Assembly: GCA_001462345.1 (NCBI GenBank)
Contig: LIUM01000013.1
Span: forward strand, 1 to 64,000
From: Fibrobacteria bacterium AD312
GTDB taxonomy: Bacteria > Fibrobacterota > Fibrobacteria > Fibrobacterales > Fibrobacteraceae
Length of the DNA stretch: 64,000 nt
Direction of reading: 5' to 3'
Part shown: piece after piece, positions 54,781-63,203 of the stretch
Layout: every line of letters begins with the position of its first letter
Numbering within the stretch: position 1 is the stretch's first letter
Notes under the pieces: model-generated
Database searches by the model: none
What the model saw: only the letters and a program-made list of their open reading frames with translations
Told to the model about the DNA's origin: nothing
Translations under genes and position numbers: made by a program

Positions 54781-56676
54781 ATGTTTTCTATTTCGACATT
54801 TTTTGATAATATGCCAAAGTCTCTATTGAGAGAGGTTCATGCGAAAGCCTTTGGTAAAAAGGGTCTCTTAAATAATACCCTTATAGTAAAAGAATCTATT
54901 CAATATTTTAGTGAAAAAAAACGATTTGATCATTTCCTTTCTGTTTTAGAATCTTGGCAAGTCAATTGCCTTTATTTGATTTATCGCAGTGAGTCTCGAG
55001 GTCTAACTTATAATGAACTTCGCTTAACTGTTCCAGTAAATAAGGCTAGAGAATTACAAAACTTTTTATTAAATGCTTGCCGTGAATATGTCATCTGGCA
55101 AGGAAAATCTACAAGTCACGTCCTTTTATATAAAGGGTTTTCGGACTTTGTCGATTCATTTAATAGCAGTGGAATAGAAGTGTTTTCTTCTACTGAAACC
55201 ATTGGTTCCTTAGAATACGATTATTTATTTGATTGGCATATCTGTAAAATTTTAGGGATGGCTGCAAAGGGTCTCTTAAAAGTCAATTTAACAGAAGGGC
55301 TTCATCGCAGGTCACTAGCACTTTGTGAAAACGCCATTACCTATTCCAAAGCCCTTTCCAGTAAAGCCACTCATGATGAAACTCTTTTTATTCTCCATTT
55401 CTTATCTCAAAATGATTGGCTTGGTCGTGAAGACTCTTTATTAAAGCCGACTCCAAAAGCGCACCAGTTTTTGAAGAAGAATGGATTCCGTTTACGTCAA
55501 GAAATTATTGCTTGGTGGATCAAAAATCGTTTTCGCGGAAACGAAGATCATTTCAAACGTTTACTAGAAAACTTGATTAATCCAATAAACATAGTAGATG
55601 CCGCCTATTTATTTTGGGTTATAGACCCATCTTATCGTATTTTAGAACGCACAAAAACATTGACTTGGGATTATTTACCAAAGCCACTTAGAGAACTCTG
55701 GTTTCTTGGGTTTGTTGATTTCAAATGCGTTAAAGATAAAATACATGCGGTGTCTCTTTCAAAAATAGGTAGAGGGTATTTAGGAAATGAAGTCACGCCA
55801 CTCGTTTCAGGAGAAGTCTCTTCTTTAGCCAACTTTGAATTAATCGTAGGAGCTAAAAACTCTCCTAGATTATTGTTTCTTGTAGCTGTTCTCGCCACAT
55901 CTCAAAATGATGAGGCTCATTTAAAATCAGTTTTTGAAAAAGAAGCCTATTTAGAAGGGCTAAAATCGGGTCTTACAGAAGAAGATGTGGAAGAATTTAT
56001 TCACTGGATTAAACCACCTAAAAACGTACACGACTCTCTGCTGGATTGGGGTTCTTGTTTCTTTGGCGCAAAAATATCCACGGCTCGTTTATTAAAAATT
56101 GAAAACAAAAAAATCCTTGAAGAACTAATGCACTTCTCTCATTTTATGGAGCTTATAAAAGAGGCTATTCCTGGTTATGGTTTTATATTAGACCCAAGTA
56201 AAGAATCGGATGCTCTCAAACTACTTTCTCATTATGGCTTGCTTCCAAATACGAATCAAGTGCAAACGACCATAGAACCATTCAAAAATGCAAATTGGGA
56301 AAAAGAATTTGTATTGCCTTGGCCTGCCAATTTAGACCCCGATTATGAATTAAAAGAATCGTTAGATAAAGAGTCTTTTATCTCTTCAATAGAAGCCACA
56401 AAATACGGCACACTATATCGTAAGTTAGAATTGATGGATCTAATTAAAGTCATGCGCTATGCAAAGTCAACAAATACAATGCTTGCAGCACAAGTGAAAA
56501 ATCCAGAAGAAAAACATGCCACTATTAAAGAAATGTTCTTTTATGCCCAAACACTACATTTTTCTAAATCACCATATGCAGCGAAGGTGCAATTAAAAGA
56601 CACCGAAGACACGATCGTTTTAGACCTCAATCACATTCAAGAAATCAAACTAGTCTATCAAGGAATGGATGTATAA
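54781..56676 (+). CDS. XPB/Ssl2 N-terminal-like (Helicase_C_3-type) protein
   Basis: 631 residues, no membrane segment or Walker motifs. The region about 345-500 (SLANFELIVG, then LEGLKSGLTEEDVEEFIHWI and LLSHYGLLPNT) resembles the domain preceding bacterial XPB helicases and found in stand-alone 'helicase-associated' proteins. The rest is helical, unrecognised. It sits next to dinG, a nucleic-acid helicase, but no XPB helicase gene is in the window. Family call rests on pattern recall and is provisional. Converges with the DoxX gene with three bases between stops. Confidence 0.5.
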   Translation: MFSISTFFDNMPKSLLREVHAKAFGKKGLLNNTLIVKESIQYFSEKKRFDHFLSVLESWQVNCLYLIYRSESRGLTYNELRLTVPVNKARELQNFLLNACREYVIWQGKSTSHVLLYKGFSDFVDSFNSSGIEVFSSTETIGSLEYDYLFDWHICKILGMAAKGLLKVNLTEGLHRRSLALCENAITYSKALSSKATHDETLFILHFLSQNDWLGREDSLLKPTPKAHQFLKKNGFRLRQEIIAWWIKNRFRGNEDHFKRLLENLINPINIVDAAYLFWVIDPSYRILERTKTLTWDYLPKPLRELWFLGFVDFKCVKDKIHAVSLSKIGRGYLGNEVTPLVSGEVSSLANFELIVGAKNSPRLLFLVAVLATSQNDEAHLKSVFEKEAYLEGLKSGLTEEDVEEFIHWIKPPKNVHDSLLDWGSCFFGAKISTARLLKIENKKILEELMHFSHFMELIKEAIPGYGFILDPSKESDALKLLSHYGLLPNTNQVQTTIEPFKNANWEKEFVLPWPANLDPDYELKESLDKESFISSIEATKYGTLYRKLELMDLIKVMRYAKSTNTMLAAQVKNPEEKHATIKEMFFYAQTLHFSKSPYAAKVQLKDTEDTIVLDLNHIQEIKLVYQGMDV

Positions 56677-56679
56677 TAA

Positions 56680-57111
56680 TTATTTCCATTTTTGATGGAT
56701 CCATTGATCTATAGAATATTTTCCAGCGCGAGCAAATGCAATAACCATTAAAATGGCGGCATAAAGCAATGGCAATTCTTGCTTACCAAAGCCATCTTGA
56801 CCATGTACAATAAATGCGGCCACAAGCATGGTAATTAGAAGAGGTAATGCTGCTAGGCGAACGGCTACTCCAAAGATTAAAAATAGTGAGCAAAAAACTT
56901 CTGCAAAGACGGTTAGTGCGAGCGAAGCAGTAACTCCAATGCCGATAGGATCCGCAAATCGAATGGGACCATCGCCAATTAGCATCATCCACTTTCCGAT
57001 GCCATGCGTGAGCATGAAACCCCCAACAATCAAGCGAAGAAAAAGTAATGAAAGCGAAATATTGTTGGAGTATTCACCAGGATTAAAACATAGGTCTAGG
57101 ATTTTTTTCAT
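56680..57111 (-). CDS. DoxX-family membrane protein
   Basis: 143 residues with four membrane helices. LLFLRLIVGGFMLTHGIGKWMM in the first helix and VFAEVFCSLFLIFGVAVRLAALPLL in the second are typical of DoxX, as is the later GFGKQELPLLYAAILMVIAFARAGKYSID. Family members are linked to quinone or thiosulfate redox and to oxidative stress in mycobacteria, but the role is not fixed. AAGGGAG precedes the ATG. 37 bp downstream of the helicase-nuclease gene and on the same strand, so possibly co-transcribed. Confidence 0.85.
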   Translation of the reverse strand: MKKILDLCFNPGEYSNNISLSLLFLRLIVGGFMLTHGIGKWMMLIGDGPIRFADPIGIGVTASLALTVFAEVFCSLFLIFGVAVRLAALPLLITMLVAAFIVHGQDGFGKQELPLLYAAILMVIAFARAGKYSIDQWIHQKWK

Positions 57112-57148
57112 AAGACTCCCTTTTTTGGTTTAGTAAAATAAAAGTAAT

Positions 57149-60100
57149 TTATTTTTTGAAATAATTCACTAGTATTTCTTTTATATGGTTATAACGCCTA
57201 GCGTAAGAGTTTGGCACGCGAATCAGCGTAAATTCATGCGTTTTGCAAATGAGCTCTTTGGCTTGATCGCATTTAATTCTGTTTTCATTAGTTCTATGTT
57301 CTTCACCATCTAATTCAATCGCGAGAATTGGAATTTCTGTATGGCCCTCTTTTTCATATAATACAAAATCAAATCGTCCAGAATAAAAAAGCGGATTTCG
57401 ACTCGCATTTTCTTCAAAAACCTGAGCAATAGGAACTTCAGTTTTGATTGTATACTTCTTTTGTTCATCCACCACGGAAAGCACATGATTGATATTTATA
57501 AAAAAATCGGATTCTGTTTTTGTGCTATAAGGTTTAAGCCCTAAAGCTCTTGAATGAGAATGCTTGGGCGTTACCTTATAATCGCCATTGGTTTTGACGT
57601 ATTGTACTAATTCATAAAGATCATCTGCTTGAGTATGGAGCCTATTGAGAGTTTCTGTATTAGAAAAGAGAACTAGTTCCTCTTTCGCTCTCGAAACAGC
57701 CACATTGATCAATTCTTTATTTTTAGAAAACCATTCATAAGTACGAGAACTAGTTTTTTGTGTGATGGCAAAAGAGAACAAGATGATATCCTTTTCATCT
57801 CCTTGAAACTCGTGTACGGTTCCACAGAGTGGCTCTAATCCTCTCTCAATCAATGCCATATTAATTCTTGCTTTTTGTGCTACAAAAGGGGTAATTACAC
57901 CAATCGATTTATCTGGATATTTTTTTACATAATCTACAATTGACAATGCTTCATTATAAGAAGTGTTTCTATCCACAGGATTTTCATTGGGTGTTTCTTG
58001 AAAAATTAAGGGAGGTAAGTCTCTTTTTTCTGTTTTGACGAGCAATTTATTGTTGTAGTATTTTTTGTTATTAAAACTGATAATCTCTTTGGCGGAACGA
58101 TAATGATGGCTTAGTAAGACTTCATCACTAATAGAATCAGCAGCTAGGAATGTTTTATAAATAGAGTTGTTTTTATAATCATATTCTGGAGCGATATTAT
58201 ATTTCCGAATTAACACATTATTGTCGAGATCATCTAAAGTGATTACCGGATTTAATTGTTGAGGATCGCCTACGAGCATCAGATTTTGTCCACGCAGAAT
58301 GGGTAATAGTGCCATGGCTACATCACATTGGCTTGCTTCATCAACAATAGTCAAATCAAAATGAATGCTTGGAGAGGCTAGCTTTTTAGCGGACTGATTG
58401 GTGGTGGCGATGATGGGGAATACTCTCAATAAATGATGTAAATTGCCATCCTCTCTTAAATAATGATTCAGTTTTTTAACGGCATCGTCTTGGTCTTCTA
58501 ATTCTAGAATTTTCAAAAGCTCTTTGTATTTGGGCTCTTTTAAGCGCTGAATATATTGTGCTGACAAATAACGTAAATAAAATAGAAATTTTTGGAAATC
58601 ATTAGGCAATAAAAATTTGACCTTTTCATCAGAGATTTCTTCAAATGCAGAAATTTGCTTTTCGATTTCCCGTAATTGTTTACTCTGCACATTCATATTG
58701 ACATTGAAATTTTGATTCTGATTTAAAAAATCTTCAATAGTTTCTTTCCGTTCTAGTAAATCAAGCTTGTCTTCGTAATTCTCAAGGTACTCCGCGAGCT
58801 TAGCTGTATTTTCAATTTTAATTTCGGTGAAATCGTCTAAGGCCTTATTTTTGATTGTCCAGCTTTTTGTGTATTCAAAAATATTCTTAATATATTGAAT
58901 AGACTTTTTCACTTCATCATTATTTCCAAGCCGTAAAATGGGAAAAGGAATTATCTTATCATCAATGGTGATACTTGATAAAATCTTAAAAGCCCCATTA
59001 ATCGGATGATTATTTTGAGAGGAAAGCAAGACAGTCTTTTTATTAAAAAGAGCGCTAATCATCGTATTGGCAATAGTCTTTGTTTTTCCAGTTCCTGGAG
59101 GCCCTTGAATATAAGTAATAGGATATTTCAGTGATTTATGAATGGCAAGTAGTTGATCTAGATTAACTTGATCATCCATCAAGACGATGGGGTAGTTTTT
59201 TGTGTTTCGAGAAGGGCGTAGTAAATCGCCAAAAAAGGCTCGTAAAGGAGTACTCACAGAACCATCAGAGACAGATTTCGTAATAGCATCATATTCAATG
59301 GTCAAATCAGGAGACTTGGACTCAAGCGCAATAATATGCGGCATGTCATCAAGGAGTTCATGGCTTTTTAAATTCCCATGTTTTAAAATAAGCTCTTTGA
59401 TGGTCTTTTCATTCTCATCAAAATCTTTTAATAAATATAGGTCTTCTTCGTACAAGTAATTTGAAACTTTGACAACATTATCTAGCGTTTGATTCTTAAG
59501 AATAAAACGAGTCAAAACTCGCGAGTTTTTCGATAAAATTAATTGCTTATTTTGAATATCAAAAAGCAGTTCTTTGAATGCTAAAACATAAAGCCCTTTG
59601 AGGGTTTTGATGCTTAACGTATTCAGCCCAAAAAGTTCTATAGGGGTAAAGTCGCTATTTGATTTTTTTGAAGCCTTCTTTTTGAAATAATCAATTAAAA
59701 AATCACATTCTTCTTGTGTTAGCTGATAACAACCATTCAAAAACTTCGATTCATCTAGATGCTCTAAAAGGCCAAAACTCTTCTCATAATTATCACTAGA
59801 CAATTTTTGACATTCTTGCAAATACGTTAAAATCTTGATATTGTGAATGTTGGAAAAAAGACAAGAATACTTTGTTGGATTCTCATTAAGTTCATGAAGC
59901 AAGGAATTATTTCTTGCCGCATAAGAACCCTCAATAATTTGAGCCTGCTTAATCCCATCGAAAAATATCTCTAGCCGAGTGCACACATGAGTTTTTAAAT
60001 GAAGGCCCATGACCTCTAATTTGGCTTTATCTTCTCCATTCTTATTGATAATAATGATATTGAGAATACTTATCCAATAATAAGTCGTTTTCTTTTCGGC

Positions 60101-60169
60101 GTTCACATATTCAATAGAGAGCCATCGGCCCTCATGTATTGCTCTGAATATGGTCCTAGAAGTACTCAT
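57149..60169 (-). CDS. WYL-like / SF1 helicase / DUF2726-type nuclease fusion protein
   Basis: 1006 residues. Residues about 1-85 (IFRAIHEGRWLSIEYVNAEKK...YYWISI) resemble a WYL ligand-sensing domain. The central part is a Upf1-like SF1B helicase: Walker A GPPGTGKT (356-363), DEASQCDVAMALLP, GDPQQLNPV, SHHYRSAKEI, VHEFQGDEKDI and NVAVSRAKEELVLFSN. The C-terminal 110 residues (SGRFDFVLYEKEG then ILAIELDGEEH) match DUF2726/restriction-endonuclease-like PD-(D/E)xK (Asp in FDFV, Glu/Asp in ELDG). No Shine-Dalgarno sequence; TATATTTG lies 4 bp before the ATG. Candidate nucleic-acid defence or repair enzyme. Confidence 0.82.
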   Translation of the reverse strand: MSTSRTIFRAIHEGRWLSIEYVNAEKKTTYYWISILNIIIINKNGEDKAKLEVMGLHLKTHVCTRLEIFFDGIKQAQIIEGSYAARNNSLLHELNENPTKYSCLFSNIHNIKILTYLQECQKLSSDNYEKSFGLLEHLDESKFLNGCYQLTQEECDFLIDYFKKKASKKSNSDFTPIELFGLNTLSIKTLKGLYVLAFKELLFDIQNKQLILSKNSRVLTRFILKNQTLDNVVKVSNYLYEEDLYLLKDFDENEKTIKELILKHGNLKSHELLDDMPHIIALESKSPDLTIEYDAITKSVSDGSVSTPLRAFFGDLLRPSRNTKNYPIVLMDDQVNLDQLLAIHKSLKYPITYIQGPPGTGKTKTIANTMISALFNKKTVLLSSQNNHPINGAFKILSSITIDDKIIPFPILRLGNNDEVKKSIQYIKNIFEYTKSWTIKNKALDDFTEIKIENTAKLAEYLENYEDKLDLLERKETIEDFLNQNQNFNVNMNVQSKQLREIEKQISAFEEISDEKVKFLLPNDFQKFLFYLRYLSAQYIQRLKEPKYKELLKILELEDQDDAVKKLNHYLREDGNLHHLLRVFPIIATTNQSAKKLASPSIHFDLTIVDEASQCDVAMALLPILRGQNLMLVGDPQQLNPVITLDDLDNNVLIRKYNIAPEYDYKNNSIYKTFLAADSISDEVLLSHHYRSAKEIISFNNKKYYNNKLLVKTEKRDLPPLIFQETPNENPVDRNTSYNEALSIVDYVKKYPDKSIGVITPFVAQKARINMALIERGLEPLCGTVHEFQGDEKDIILFSFAITQKTSSRTYEWFSKNKELINVAVSRAKEELVLFSNTETLNRLHTQADDLYELVQYVKTNGDYKVTPKHSHSRALGLKPYSTKTESDFFININHVLSVVDEQKKYTIKTEVPIAQVFEENASRNPLFYSGRFDFVLYEKEGHTEIPILAIELDGEEHRTNENRIKCDQAKELICKTHEFTLIRVPNSYARRYNHIKEILVNYFKK

Positions 60170-60173
60170 AAAT

Positions 60174-60181
60174 CAAATATA
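60174..60181 (-). promoter_or_regulatory. TAnnTTTG promoter box of the helicase-nuclease
   Basis: TATATTTG on the minus strand, 4 bases (ATTT) before the ATG. Suggests a leaderless transcript. No -33 TTG at the expected spacing. Confidence 0.55.
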
Positions 60182-60259
60182 TTCTTAAAATAGAGATAAA
60201 GATAACATCAAGTAATATTAAACTAATAGATTGGGTTAATCTAATTATTAAAAATAAAT

Positions 60260-60582
60260 ATTTTTTGAAATAATTCACTAGTATTTCTTTTATATGGCTA
60301 TAACGCCTAGCGTAAGAGTTTGGCACGCGAATCAGCGTAAATTCATGCGTTTTGCAAATGCGCTCTTTGGCTTGATCGCATTTAATTCTGTTTTCATTAG
60401 TTCTATGTTCATCACCATCTAATTCAATCGCGAGAATCGCTACTTCGGTATGAGCGTCTTTTTCGTACAGTACAAAATCAAATCGCCCGGAATAAAAAAG
60501 AGTATTTCCACTAGTATTGTTTTCAAAAACTTGAGCAAAAGGTACTTCTGTTTTTACGGTATATCTTTTTTGATCGAAATTC
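60260..60582 (-). pseudogene. Remnant of a second DUF2726-type helicase-nuclease (3' end)
   Basis: On the minus strand this encodes about 105 residues homologous to the C-terminal nuclease domain of the 57149 gene: YSGRFDFVLYEKDAHTEVAI, LAIELDGDEHRTNENRIKCD and IRVPNSYARRYSHIKEILVN. The frame is closed upstream by TAG at 60582-60584, there is no start codon, and the helicase part is missing. Positions 60260-60437 differ from 57151-57328 at only three bases (all amino-acid changing), whereas the remainder is clearly more diverged, a mosaic pattern. Its own stop codon is lost, as the frame runs on past FKK. Confidence 0.85.
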
Positions 60583-60618
60583 TAATAAGTGCATTTTTCG
60601 GGAAAAACGGCAAAAATT

Positions 60619-61074
60619 TTATTTTGCGTTTAAAGGCCTACTAGAAAATCCCTTAAGAATTTTTGGGCTTTCGCAATTATACATATCAATGTAAACTTTC
60701 TTCTCGTAAGGCTTATTTTCAATAAATACAGTATAAATATCAATCATCAGAATACGGCCATCTGTATATGTTGTACTCGTGCTGCCTTGTCTATCAACCC
60801 CTGTGATGCTTTTTCCGTTGGGACCTAATAATTGGGATAAATAAATGTATTCGTTTTCTGGGCCTCCACCGACTCGAACAGCATTGTCCACTGTAAATCC
60901 ATAAGTTGGATCTTTTGAAATCTCCGTGGATGCGTCAAGAATAACTACACAACTTTCATCAATGGGTCTAGGCATATAATGACTTCTAGGGCTGCTGCTA
61001 CAGCCAATAATCATAGAACAAAGGATCATGAAAAAAATGCCGTTGATTAAAAGACGCTTTGATGATAAAAACAT
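60619..61074 (-). CDS. Hypothetical lipoprotein
   Basis: 151 residues. Signal peptide with lipobox SMIIGC (Cys25), preceded by GAGGAG. The mature protein (about 26-151) is mainly beta-strand-like with VRVGGGPENEYIYLSQLL and YTDGRILMIDIYTVFIEN; a single late cysteine occurs in DMYNCESPK. No family recognised. A near-match TATATTTA lies upstream. Its neighbours are nuclease-domain genes, but nothing ties it to them beyond strand and proximity. Confidence 0.6.
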   Translation of the reverse strand: MFLSSKRLLINGIFFMILCSMIIGCSSSPRSHYMPRPIDESCVVILDASTEISKDPTYGFTVDNAVRVGGGPENEYIYLSQLLGPNGKSITGVDRQGSTSTTYTDGRILMIDIYTVFIENKPYEKKVYIDMYNCESPKILKGFSSRPLNAK

Positions 61075-61156
61075 GAATAGTTCTCCTCAATTTCTATGGA
61101 TTCATGGTTCGTTAAATATAGACTATAAAAATTAAATAAACTCGAAAACGATCGGC

Positions 61157-62212
61157 TTATTTTATCATAAAACGGCATTTGGGGAAATTGGAACACCCCC
61201 AGAATTGATTCCCTGAATGAGCTCCTCTTTTTGCTGTTCTAAAAACCATGGGGCTACCACAGCGCGGGCATATCTTTTCATTTTCATCGGCTTGGGCTTT
61301 ATTTTCATTGACTTTGATTTCGTTCTTCTCTACTATAGTTTTTTTTTCGGTATTGTCTTTTTTATATGATTCACGAATCTCTGGCGGTATATACTTTTCA
61401 TCACCCATAGGCTCATCCATTTTGGATGTAGAATGCGAGAGACTACATTCTTCTAACATAGCTTCATATTTTTTAGCATAATCAGATTGATTTGGAATAC
61501 TGCAATTCACATAGAAAAACATTACTTCTTCCATTTCTTTATCGGAAGACTCATAATTATCATCAGAAGAGTCAACTTTTTTTATGTAAGAGATAAGTTG
61601 ATCTGCACGAATAATCTGTTCACGAATTTGTTTAGGTGCATTTTTATCGTTCAAGACAGTTTTTTCGTTGGCAAGAACAACTATCGAACGGTAACATTTT
61701 GGAAAAGCGGTGTCATAAAAAAGTTTTCCTAATAAATTGTTTTTCACCAGTCGACGCACTTCTTTTAAAACATTAAGATGACGCTCATTTTGAGTGATGG
61801 GGGAATAAAGGCCTTCTTTTTTATAAGTTTTACCATACCGAATATGACGAATAAAATTACCTTTGTCGTCAATTTCTATATCTCCATAAAGATTCTTGCA
61901 TTCAATTACAAAAAGATGCTTTCGAGTCATCACTAAAAAATCAATTTGCGCAGATAATTCTCCCTTTTTCAAATATAAATCATGCGCGATCATCATATCT
62001 AGACCACTATTTTTTAATTCGTAAATAATCTGCTTTTCGCCATAGAGGCCAGCTTCTGCGTTACGGATTTGCTCCTCAATTTTATCCTTAAGAGATCCAG
62101 AAGCTTTTGAAGATAGAAACTTCAGTTTTCCGATATAATCACTAGTATCACTCGCGTCCTTCACAAAAACAGGCCCTAAACGCTTTCCAAATAATGAATC
62201 TAATAACGACAT
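61157..62212 (-). CDS. NERD-domain protein with C-terminal topoisomerase-type zinc ribbon
   Basis: 351 residues from ATG 62212, preferred over ATG 62224 because GAGG sits five bases before it. NERD nuclease-like domain about 55-200: GEKQIIYEL (Glu59), DFLVMTRKHLFVIECKN with Asp91 and ExK (104-106), the PD-(D/E)xK-like site. A charged linker (about 255-315) leads to a zinc ribbon CPRCGSPMVFRTAKRG...FWGCSNFPKC, like the C-terminal fingers of topoisomerase I. Suggests a DNA-binding nuclease. Divergent from the second NERD gene with about 40 bp between starts. Confidence 0.82.
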   Translation of the reverse strand: MSLLDSLFGKRLGPVFVKDASDTSDYIGKLKFLSSKASGSLKDKIEEQIRNAEAGLYGEKQIIYELKNSGLDMMIAHDLYLKKGELSAQIDFLVMTRKHLFVIECKNLYGDIEIDDKGNFIRHIRYGKTYKKEGLYSPITQNERHLNVLKEVRRLVKNNLLGKLFYDTAFPKCYRSIVVLANEKTVLNDKNAPKQIREQIIRADQLISYIKKVDSSDDNYESSDKEMEEVMFFYVNCSIPNQSDYAKKYEAMLEECSLSHSTSKMDEPMGDEKYIPPEIRESYKKDNTEKKTIVEKNEIKVNENKAQADENEKICPRCGSPMVFRTAKRGAHSGNQFWGCSNFPKCRFMIK

Positions 62213-62251
62213 TGCATACCTCATCGAAAATATAAGTTATATTAAAAAAAT

Positions 62252-63157
62252 ATGACTCGCTTTAATGATTATAATGAATCTTCTACGGCAAAAAAAAATA
62301 TTTCAATTATTCTATTAGTGCTAAGTGTAGTCTATACTCTTTTTCCAAACATTCCTTTCCCTTTTGACGACATAGCCTTGATTATTGCTGCTATTTCTAA
62401 CGCTGGATATCATTTGTTAAACCCGCAACAAATAATTATAAAAAGGGTGATGAATGTTTTACGGAAAATTTTATTTGCGATTTATATAGTGATTGTTGTT
62501 TTTGGCGGGCTTATTCTTCTTATTACACTCCATTTAGCTGGAGTTGATTTTAAAAATGCTTTGTGGATTTATGTTTTTATATTAGCAACGCTATTATTTA
62601 TGGGGCGTTTTTTTCAAAATAAGTTAGTCGGCTGGATTGGAGAGGTGTATTCAGCAAGTGTTATTCGAATGATTACTAGAGGCGTTGTCCTTAAAGACGT
62701 CTATATTGAAGGCTCAAGTAATGTGGTACAAATTGATATTATAGCGATTACGGAGAAAGGTGTTCTGGTGATTGAGAAAAAAACAATGATTGGATTAATT
62801 CTAGGCGATGAGTATCAAAAACAATGGACTATTTCATTGAAAAGAGGAAAATTAAAATATCCAATGAAAAATCCTTTACATCAGAATTATGGTCATATAA
62901 AAGTATTAGAAGAAAAATTTCCAGAATATAAAGATTACTTCATTAATTTGGTTGTTTTTGGTAATAACGCTAAGTTAGGAAAAAAAATTCCAGATAATGT
63001 TATTACAGATCGGCAGTTTTTAAAGTATTATCGCTCGCTAGCAAATAGAATGAGTCCATCTCTACAGGAAGATTTTACTTCACTTTTAATGGAATTAAGT
63101 AAAAATCGCGAAGAAGTAAAAAGAAAGCATAAAAACAAAATTAGACAATATAAATAG
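62252..63157 (+). CDS. Membrane-anchored NERD-domain protein
   Basis: 301 residues. Three hydrophobic helices at about 17-50 and 72-118; the first region (LVLSVVYTLFPNIPFPFDDIALIIAAIS) resembles DUF1232. The NERD core lies about 128-230: GEVYSASVI (Glu131), IDIIAITEKGVLVIEKKT with Asp162 and ExK-like EKK (175-177). A basic tail ends the protein. Likely faces the cytoplasm and acts on nucleic acid near the membrane. No Shine-Dalgarno sequence; AT-rich upstream (TATATT at about 62236) may be its promoter. Confidence 0.75.
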   Translation: MTRFNDYNESSTAKKNISIILLVLSVVYTLFPNIPFPFDDIALIIAAISNAGYHLLNPQQIIIKRVMNVLRKILFAIYIVIVVFGGLILLITLHLAGVDFKNALWIYVFILATLLFMGRFFQNKLVGWIGEVYSASVIRMITRGVVLKDVYIEGSSNVVQIDIIAITEKGVLVIEKKTMIGLILGDEYQKQWTISLKRGKLKYPMKNPLHQNYGHIKVLEEKFPEYKDYFINLVVFGNNAKLGKKIPDNVITDRQFLKYYRSLANRMSPSLQEDFTSLLMELSKNREEVKRKHKNKIRQYK

Positions 63158-63203
63158 TCTCCCTTATCCCCCCTTTTTTATCCTGAAAAACTTTATTTTC
63201 CAT

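Follow-up and report, generated by a model that had tools for sequence, protein, structure and literature searches.

Analysis of a 64,000-nucleotide stretch of Fibrobacteria bacterium AD312 (contig LIUM01000013.1, positions 1 to 64,000 of the forward strand; hereafter the window) identified a complete gene predicted to encode, in a single chain, an N-terminal WYL-fold domain, a UPF1-like superfamily 1 (SF1) helicase and a C-terminal DUF2726 nuclease. The gene is located on the minus strand, a point on which the initial annotation was silent, with its ATG at 60169 and its stop codon at 57149-57151, and the reading frame of 1006 amino acids (aa) is open throughout. The family to which it belongs is patchily distributed in gut bacteria and probably serves in antiviral defence. 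We assign a probability of roughly 0.5 to the reading that the protein is a stand-alone, single-chain, DNA-directed defence enzyme. With the WYL fold placed directly on a motor-nuclease, sensing and cutting could sit in one protein.

The three parts that the initial annotation had read in one chain were all found, and the full-length open chain was present in 84/84 other homologous loci examined, a few of which carry identical or almost identical copies. These loci (designated L and a number) comprised the best 80 of 147 relatives from one scan of a species-level genome collection and four from a related-genome search. The family alignment contained 85 rows, and residue conservation was counted per row. 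From these rows, 49 representatives (<72% identity) were chosen; analyses A2 and A3 and the structure models used 48 (L070 out, L021 replacing L011), and analysis A4 used 27. Pfam analysis of the whole chain identified AAA_11 (residues 335-643), AAA_12 (672-838) and DUF2726 (883-998), and the full-length AlphaFold model had a mean predicted local distance difference test (pLDDT) score of 84.1. A three-part chain with conserved motifs and a WYL-type fold is not a chance expectation.

The N-terminal domain was characterised in an AlphaFold model of residues 1-320, built from 48 sequences (mean pLDDT 86.7). Residues 1-86 were modelled as a helix (2-13) followed by five strands (17-22, 28-43, 46-56, 63-69 and 73-78). 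The top 13 rows of a Foldseek search against the PDB were all WYL regulators (PafBC, with the best E of 8.7e-4, BrxR and CapW). Similarly, the best match in VIA-align 2 was PafBC, with a Z score of 11.3 and a root-mean-square deviation (rmsd) of 1.6 A over 76 residues, followed by DriD (11.1), BrxR (11.0) and CapW (10.8); PafBC, DriD, BrxR and CapW occupied the top 14 rows (Z ~8.3-11.3, rmsd 1.6-2.8, 76-78 residues). The first non-WYL matches were Sm proteins with a Z score of 8.2, with Hfq lower, at Z 6-7; the WYL and Sm/Hfq barrels are related. By the model, the helix and Sm-like SH3 barrel at the N-terminus are a WYL fold.

The claim of an N-terminal WYL domain thus stood as a fold, while the profile searches remained below threshold. 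Pfam WYL (PF13280) scored 12.6 bits (E 0.15) against a cut-off of 21.8 when the 320 N-terminal residues of the window protein were scanned alone, and it was absent among the 13 Pfam families that matched the whole chain up to E 10. It was the most recurrent N-terminal family among the 48 members, with 11/48 matching at E up to 10 and a best E of 0.0057. The alignment by hhalign of the family N-terminus with eight WYL proteins of related genomes gave a probability of 3.3 over 23 columns, and a PDB profile search for WYL with the N-terminal sequence returned no significant match. The assignment is settled by the structural model, the sequence searches being sub-significant.

The central part of the chain, residues 107-864, is by sequence and model a UPF1-like SF1 helicase with a helical insertion. 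Residues of about 107-312 were assigned to the stalk and 1B barrel because the IGHMBP2 and UPF1 alignments begin at residue 107-108. The helicase motifs I-VI and the Upf1-like character proposed in the initial annotation were supported, with motifs II and III and key residues of motifs I, V and VI conserved in 85/85 rows. In addition to the Walker motifs (Table 1), the residues present in all rows were Q339, motif III GDPQQL (634-639), HYR (689-691), D791 of motif V (GTVH.FQGD, 783-791) and R827 of motif VI (NVA.SRA, 822-828). Structural comparison of model residues 107-864 gave IGHMBP2 as a match with a Z score of 22.9 (3.6 A, 438 residues) and UPF1 with 22.4; Sen1 and DNA2 were lower, both with Z scores of about 17. 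The IGHMBP2 family of NCBIfam (TIGR00376) was not reached, at 124 bits compared to a cut-off of 348.9.

The C-terminal domain fits a nuclease of the PD-(D/E)XK type, that is, of the restriction-endonuclease (REase) fold, with conserved acidic residues. The DUF2726 family (PF10881) matched with 35.9 bits (cut-off of 24.7) and, at E up to 0.001, was found in 48/48 members; a REase family, MTES_1575, matched 17/48. The nuclease-like FDFV...ELDG segment noted initially falls within this domain and was upheld by its conservation, with D934 and E952 present in 85/85 rows and D954 in 83/85. Further conserved residues were E886 (85 rows), E957 (85), H958 (84), D968 (84) and K971 (85). Searching PDB sequences with the profile of the nuclease returned no match; the REase fold is a probable assignment from Pfam, from the order of secondary structure elements in the full-length model (helix, three strands, helix, strand, helix) and from Anantharaman et al. 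2013, in the available text of which DUF2726 is given the REase fold (PMC3710099).

Table 1. Features of the gene and its surroundings, in window coordinates.
Feature	Position	Strand	Basis
Complete gene, WYL - UPF1-like helicase - DUF2726 nuclease	57149..60169	-	Sequence; co-linear open chain in 84/84 homologous loci
WYL-fold domain, residues 1-86	59912..60169	-	AlphaFold model, VIA-align, Foldseek; Pfam WYL sub-threshold
Stalk helices and 1B beta-barrel, residues about 107-312	59234..59851	-	IGHMBP2/UPF1 alignments; helix-barrel-helix in models
SF1 helicase core, residues 335-864 (AAA_11, AAA_12)	57578..59167	-	Pfam; IGHMBP2 fold match
Walker A (motif I) GPPGTGKT, residues 356-363	59081..59104	-	Sequence; K362 in 85/85 rows
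Insertion of helices following Walker A, residues about 417-583, including a 44-residue helix (441-484)	58421..58921	-	Secondary structure of full-length model
Walker B (motif II) DEASQ, residues 610-614	58328..58342	-	85/85 rows
DUF2726 domain of probable restriction-endonuclease fold, residues 883-1005	57155..57523	-	Pfam, strand order in model, PMC3710099
D934 (FDFV), partner of E952/D954	57368-57370	-	85/85 rows
Predicted metal-binding E952-L-D954	57308..57316	-	E952 in 85/85, D954 in 83/85 rows
Second copy reduced to a headless C-terminal remnant, a short way upstream of the gene	60259..60575	-	Matches residues 902-1006 (last 105 codons), 86% aa identity
Two divergent NERD-domain genes, 27 bp apart	61157-62224; 62252-63157	-; +	Nuclease-related domain in both

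Restriction or abortive-infection genes were neighbours of the gene in 6/8 Fibrobacterota loci. The neighbours included HsdR, an AAA_5 McrB-like protein and McrC, with the helicase gene 62 bp further on (L012); McrC, also 62 bp from the helicase gene, with a YhcG nuclease on the other side (L011); HsdR and GmrSD, 79 bp from the helicase gene (L013, which shares its gene with L019); HsdR and HsdS, 250 bp from the open reading frame (L014); HsdM and GmrSD, 79 bp from the open reading frame (L020); and a divergent AbiEii (L018). No neighbour was recognised by eye in L021, and the window locus contained no classical system. Because the restriction and abortive-infection partners differ among these loci, the gene arrangement suggests an interchangeable passenger or a second line, not a fixed subunit. 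The initial annotation had named two findings that together would speak against it: an N-terminal part with no WYL similarity in profile searches, which is nearly what was obtained, and housekeeping neighbours in all relatives, which is clearly not the case. Related genes of ~280 aa (cluster 33) were observed 2-4 kb downstream in three of these loci (L011 10354-11193, L012 13919-14740 and L014 14215-15201), and a gene resembling them adjoins a distant helicase homologue in L016.

For the DNA-directed defence enzyme, the following sequence of steps may be proposed. The WYL-fold domain would engage single-stranded nucleic acid, or a signal derived from nucleic acid, and so gate or clamp the motor and control its loading. 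The UPF1-like helicase would load on single-stranded nucleic acid and translocate, in the 5' to 3' direction by family precedent, and the DUF2726 nuclease would cut what the motor exposes. The target would be the nucleic acid of an invading phage or plasmid, and the enzyme would act alongside any restriction system sharing its locus. We infer single-stranded DNA (ssDNA) over RNA as the ligand, and likewise the strand polarity, the antiviral role and the coupling of WYL, motor and nuclease. The preference for DNA comes from the WYL precedent, which binds ssDNA, and from the restriction enzymes that neighbour the gene in Fibrobacterota. Also in favour of the defence reading are the three domain folds, catalytic motifs retained in at least 83 of 85 rows, the accessory distribution, the C5 methylase neighbours outside Fibrobacterota, the low GC and interrupted homology of the local segment, the PADLOC helicase matches and the precedent of Nhi.

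Several observations weigh against this reading, the first of which is that the nearest structural motors include RNA helicases. An enzyme directed at RNA, with a UPF1-like motor and a nuclease that break down RNA of viral or cellular origin and with defence proceeding through RNA cleavage or dormancy, would be consistent with the nearest solved motors being largely RNA helicases (SETX, IGHMBP2 and UPF1). It would also be consistent with the presence of Hfq in the structural list of the N-terminal domain, given the relationship of WYL to the Sm/Hfq barrels. A precedent is CnuH of the CoCoNuT systems, described in the available text of its report as a UPF1-like helicase with a helical insertion after Walker A, to which a Vsr-like nuclease is fused in type III-B, and predicted to act on RNA (PMC11090510). 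The insertion after Walker A in the window protein resembles that of CnuH. However, the WYL domains of PafBC, DriD and TePif1 are reported to bind ssDNA in the text available (PMC11804915, PMC9964779), the UPF1-like DNA2, with a Z score of about 17 to the motor, acts on DNA, and the Fibrobacterota neighbours are DNA restriction enzymes. An RNA-directed enzyme is rather unlikely on balance.

A second point concerns the ligand site of the WYL fold. WYL domains are known chiefly from transcription factors controlling defence and damage genes, in which they bind the ligand. The columns presumed to correspond to the PafB arginines are occupied by Y47/F17/R6 (column 69) and S56/G11/K6/R6 (column 72) of 85 rows, the columns being placed by motif and strand order and not by coordinates; for this placement, the 'IDSI' of the window family was taken to stand in the place of the 'LDRI' motif of known WYL domains, whose basic ligand residues are an arginine pair adjoining the '.R.DRI' strand. 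The canonical ssDNA-holding pair thus appears to be lost in the family; in PafB, arginines R211 and R214 are reported as required for ssDNA in the portion of the source available (PMC11804915). The role of a sensor is less sure than the WYL fold itself because the canonical ligand arginines seem to be absent. The barrel could instead be a structural or protein-docking module that binds no ligand, leaving a plain helicase-nuclease without a sensor, on either substrate and in either role; the apparent loss of the arginines and the sub-cut-off WYL sequence profile would agree with such a module. The WYL domain nevertheless carries a near-invariant residue set of its own (H12 in 81 of 85 rows, K/R15 in 84, W16 in 84, Y21 in 85, N23 in 85, W32 in 85 and H57 in 83), which suggests a working surface, and a ligand-free barrel is possible but doubtful.

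A more specific form of the defence reading may tentatively be advanced, with the odds against it. The gene would represent a new kind of single-gene defence in gut anaerobes. Its WYL domain, re-tooled, would read a ligand directly and license the motor and nuclease of the same chain without a transcription step. The usual arginines would be swapped for a surface of H12, K15, W16, N23, W32 and H57, and the ligand may be an ssDNA end, a nucleotide or a modified base. The protein would form an interchangeable second line behind unrelated restriction systems, namely McrBC, GmrSD and type I systems.

The remaining points against the DNA-directed defence enzyme are from its genomic setting. Outside Fibrobacterota, the direct neighbours were mixed and mostly not defence genes, and the 85 nearest open reading frames of 48 loci (Fibrobacterota L011-L014 included) fell into 104 Pfam families, each with at most two members. 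The searches for HsdR and C5 methylase covered 44 of 46 loci, and distances were counted in the 20 non-Fibrobacterota genomes with a known gene position. HsdR was within 10 kb at 0/20 of these loci (0/15 hits; 0.10 expected). The direct neighbours of the window gene itself encode a DoxX-like protein and a short lipoprotein-like protein, with two NERD proteins further upstream. On the family tree, the six host labels need seven changes (minimum of five), so that the gene is less mobile than many defence genes. A full-length copy was present in none of the viral, phage and plasmid records searched: the viral contigs gave 37 pattern matches and zero relatives, four phage records matched the helicase part only (at most 37% of the query), and 163 plasmid records matched, none reaching 80% query coverage.

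In the same 20 genomes, C5 methylase was found within 10 kb at 2/20 loci (3/26 hits), compared to 0.18 loci expected. On the enrichment of defence genes in neighbourhoods across genomes, proposed initially as a check, the evidence was mixed, with the Fibrobacterota loci and the C5 methylase count in favour and the HsdR count and the mixed neighbours elsewhere against. A general defence-island claim was rejected on account of these mixed nearest neighbours. Same-strand neighbours within 100 bp were present upstream in 35/78 and downstream in 30/74 of the loci that had a same-strand neighbour there. A ResIII/DEAD helicase was near the gene in four loci, and an AAA_15 ATPase in three closely related loci. 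Judged by eye, RecQ-type helicases were near the gene in five loci (L032, L053, L060, L062 and L069), alkyltransferase-like genes in five and glycosylase-like genes in four. These three kinds of neighbour would be in keeping with accessory genome maintenance, in which a DNA2-like helicase-nuclease processes stalled forks or damaged ends and has no part in defence, as would the WYL regulators PafBC and DriD, which serve the DNA-damage response according to the text available. Several of the RecQ, alkyltransferase and glycosylase loci are, however, mutually close relatives, the distribution of the family is patchy and the Fibrobacterota contexts are restriction operons, and we regard a pure maintenance role as quite unlikely. 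Four loci (L022 and L024 11004-11561, L067 4047-4634 and L072 3875-4435) also encode a protein of ~190 aa next to the helicase gene or in its vicinity, and the domain of this protein matches (E 1.9e-9) a RecQ-type protein directly downstream of the gene in L060. It is possible that this protein is a helicase-associated partner.

The representatives share 43-68% identity with the window protein. According to the record titles of the best 80 of 147 relatives and the four additional loci, the hosts are Fibrobacterota, Bacillota, Spirochaetota and Actinomycetota, with two Bacteroidota bins and one Melainabacteria bin, and many carriers are from gut and rumen samples. The gene is accessory, being present in 8/167 genomes of the phylum Fibrobacterota and in 10/150 genomes of the Bacillota family of the Roseburia faecis carrier, with the query genome counted. 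The tree was built from 84 of the 85 rows, L013 being dropped, and the eight Fibrobacterota sequences clustered with a support of 100. Judged from the tree, transfer is limited, whether real or the product of mis-binned contigs. Two further genomes from the family of the window (G011:C40, L015, and G019:C33, L016) carry a second family of helicases, of ~914 aa, with 31-33% identity to only part of the helicase core (query 579-857).

The window protein was compared with known defence systems. The PADLOC helicases MkoA, MkoC, PDC-S37 and Hhe were matched by all 48 representatives. MkoC of Mokosh type II was the best PADLOC match (162.9 bits, residues 439-876) and is likewise a single chain with a UPF1-like helicase, but the window protein differs in its N-terminal WYL and C-terminal DUF2726 domains. 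MkoC ends in a phospholipase-D (PLD) nuclease, and no PLD family was among the 13 Pfam families matching the window chain up to E 10. Hhe is also an SF1 helicase chain with an anti-phage annotation, and carries a C-terminal Vsr-type nuclease. The window protein reached only 69.8 bits compared to the NCBIfam equivalog cut-off of 2000 for Hhe, had no DUF4011 match and is about half as long. It shares with CnuH the helical insertion (417-583) after Walker A, a fused nuclease and, upstream of the gene, McrB-like and McrC proteins in L012 and McrC in L011; it differs in having a WYL domain where CnuH has a winged helix-turn-helix N-terminus, and most loci are without McrB. Membership in CoCoNuT, which the McrBC genes of L011 and L012 had raised, was rejected, as the motif of the L012 McrB is NDID, that is, NxxD and not NxD. 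This McrB had no relative beside the gene in other loci, with the exception of a 28% match in L097. By these sequence comparisons, the family fails a defining feature of Mokosh type II, Hhe and CoCoNuT alike.

Nhi and Hachiman similarly combine a helicase with a nuclease, in one gene in the case of Nhi, and we take their domain families to be different from those of the window protein. Nhi was not among the PADLOC matches of the window protein or the 48 members, and no comparison aimed at Nhi was made. In the text available, Nhi is described as a single-gene nuclease-helicase (PMC12904381) and Hachiman (HamAB) as a sensor helicase. WYL-bearing Pif1 helicases of thermophiles (TePif1 and DdPif1) also join WYL to an SF1 helicase, and the WYL domain of TePif1 is reported to bind ssDNA and support the motor (PMC9964779). 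Unlike the window protein, they have a C-terminal WYL domain with conserved arginines and a Pif1-type motor, and a nuclease is not mentioned in the available part of that report. The WYL-helicase join is not new, because Makarova et al. 2014 mention a Superfamily-I helicase among WYL fusions, in one sentence (PMC4012209); a C-terminal DUF2726 is not described in the available text, and these fusions may include the window family. Full-text literature searches, the coverage of which excluded most subscription papers, found no description of WYL-UPF1-DUF2726 as one unit. The WYL-SF1 fusion is already known, and the three-part chain is a variant that is no surprise in principle.

The gene has a GC content of 33.7% compared to 38.1% for the window, and lies in an AT-rich segment (56680-63200) with about 33% GC. 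Homology to the same-genus genomes G001 and G002 covers a gene encoding 631 aa and ends shortly ahead of the DoxX-like gene, at 56,669-56,682, and the right flank in G001 (NERD protein and rubrerythrin) is conserved up to the contig end. No complete empty site was seen in the same-genus genomes compared. By these alignments, the surroundings of the gene fit a variable segment. The remnant just upstream of the gene (Table 1) had a DNA identity to the gene of 80.5% over the first 53 codons but 98.1% over the remaining 52, and 21/34 differences were at third positions. As the identity is uneven between the halves and the differences concentrate at third positions, the remnant probably stems from an older duplicate that recombination or gene conversion with the intact gene has homogenised in part. 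One of the two NERD genes has a topoisomerase-type zinc ribbon, and both are weakly similar to the N-termini of MAD6/PglW. For the 631-aa protein (54781-56676), which was conserved in 21/25 related genomes, scans of Pfam, PADLOC and NCBIfam gave no match within the limits applied.

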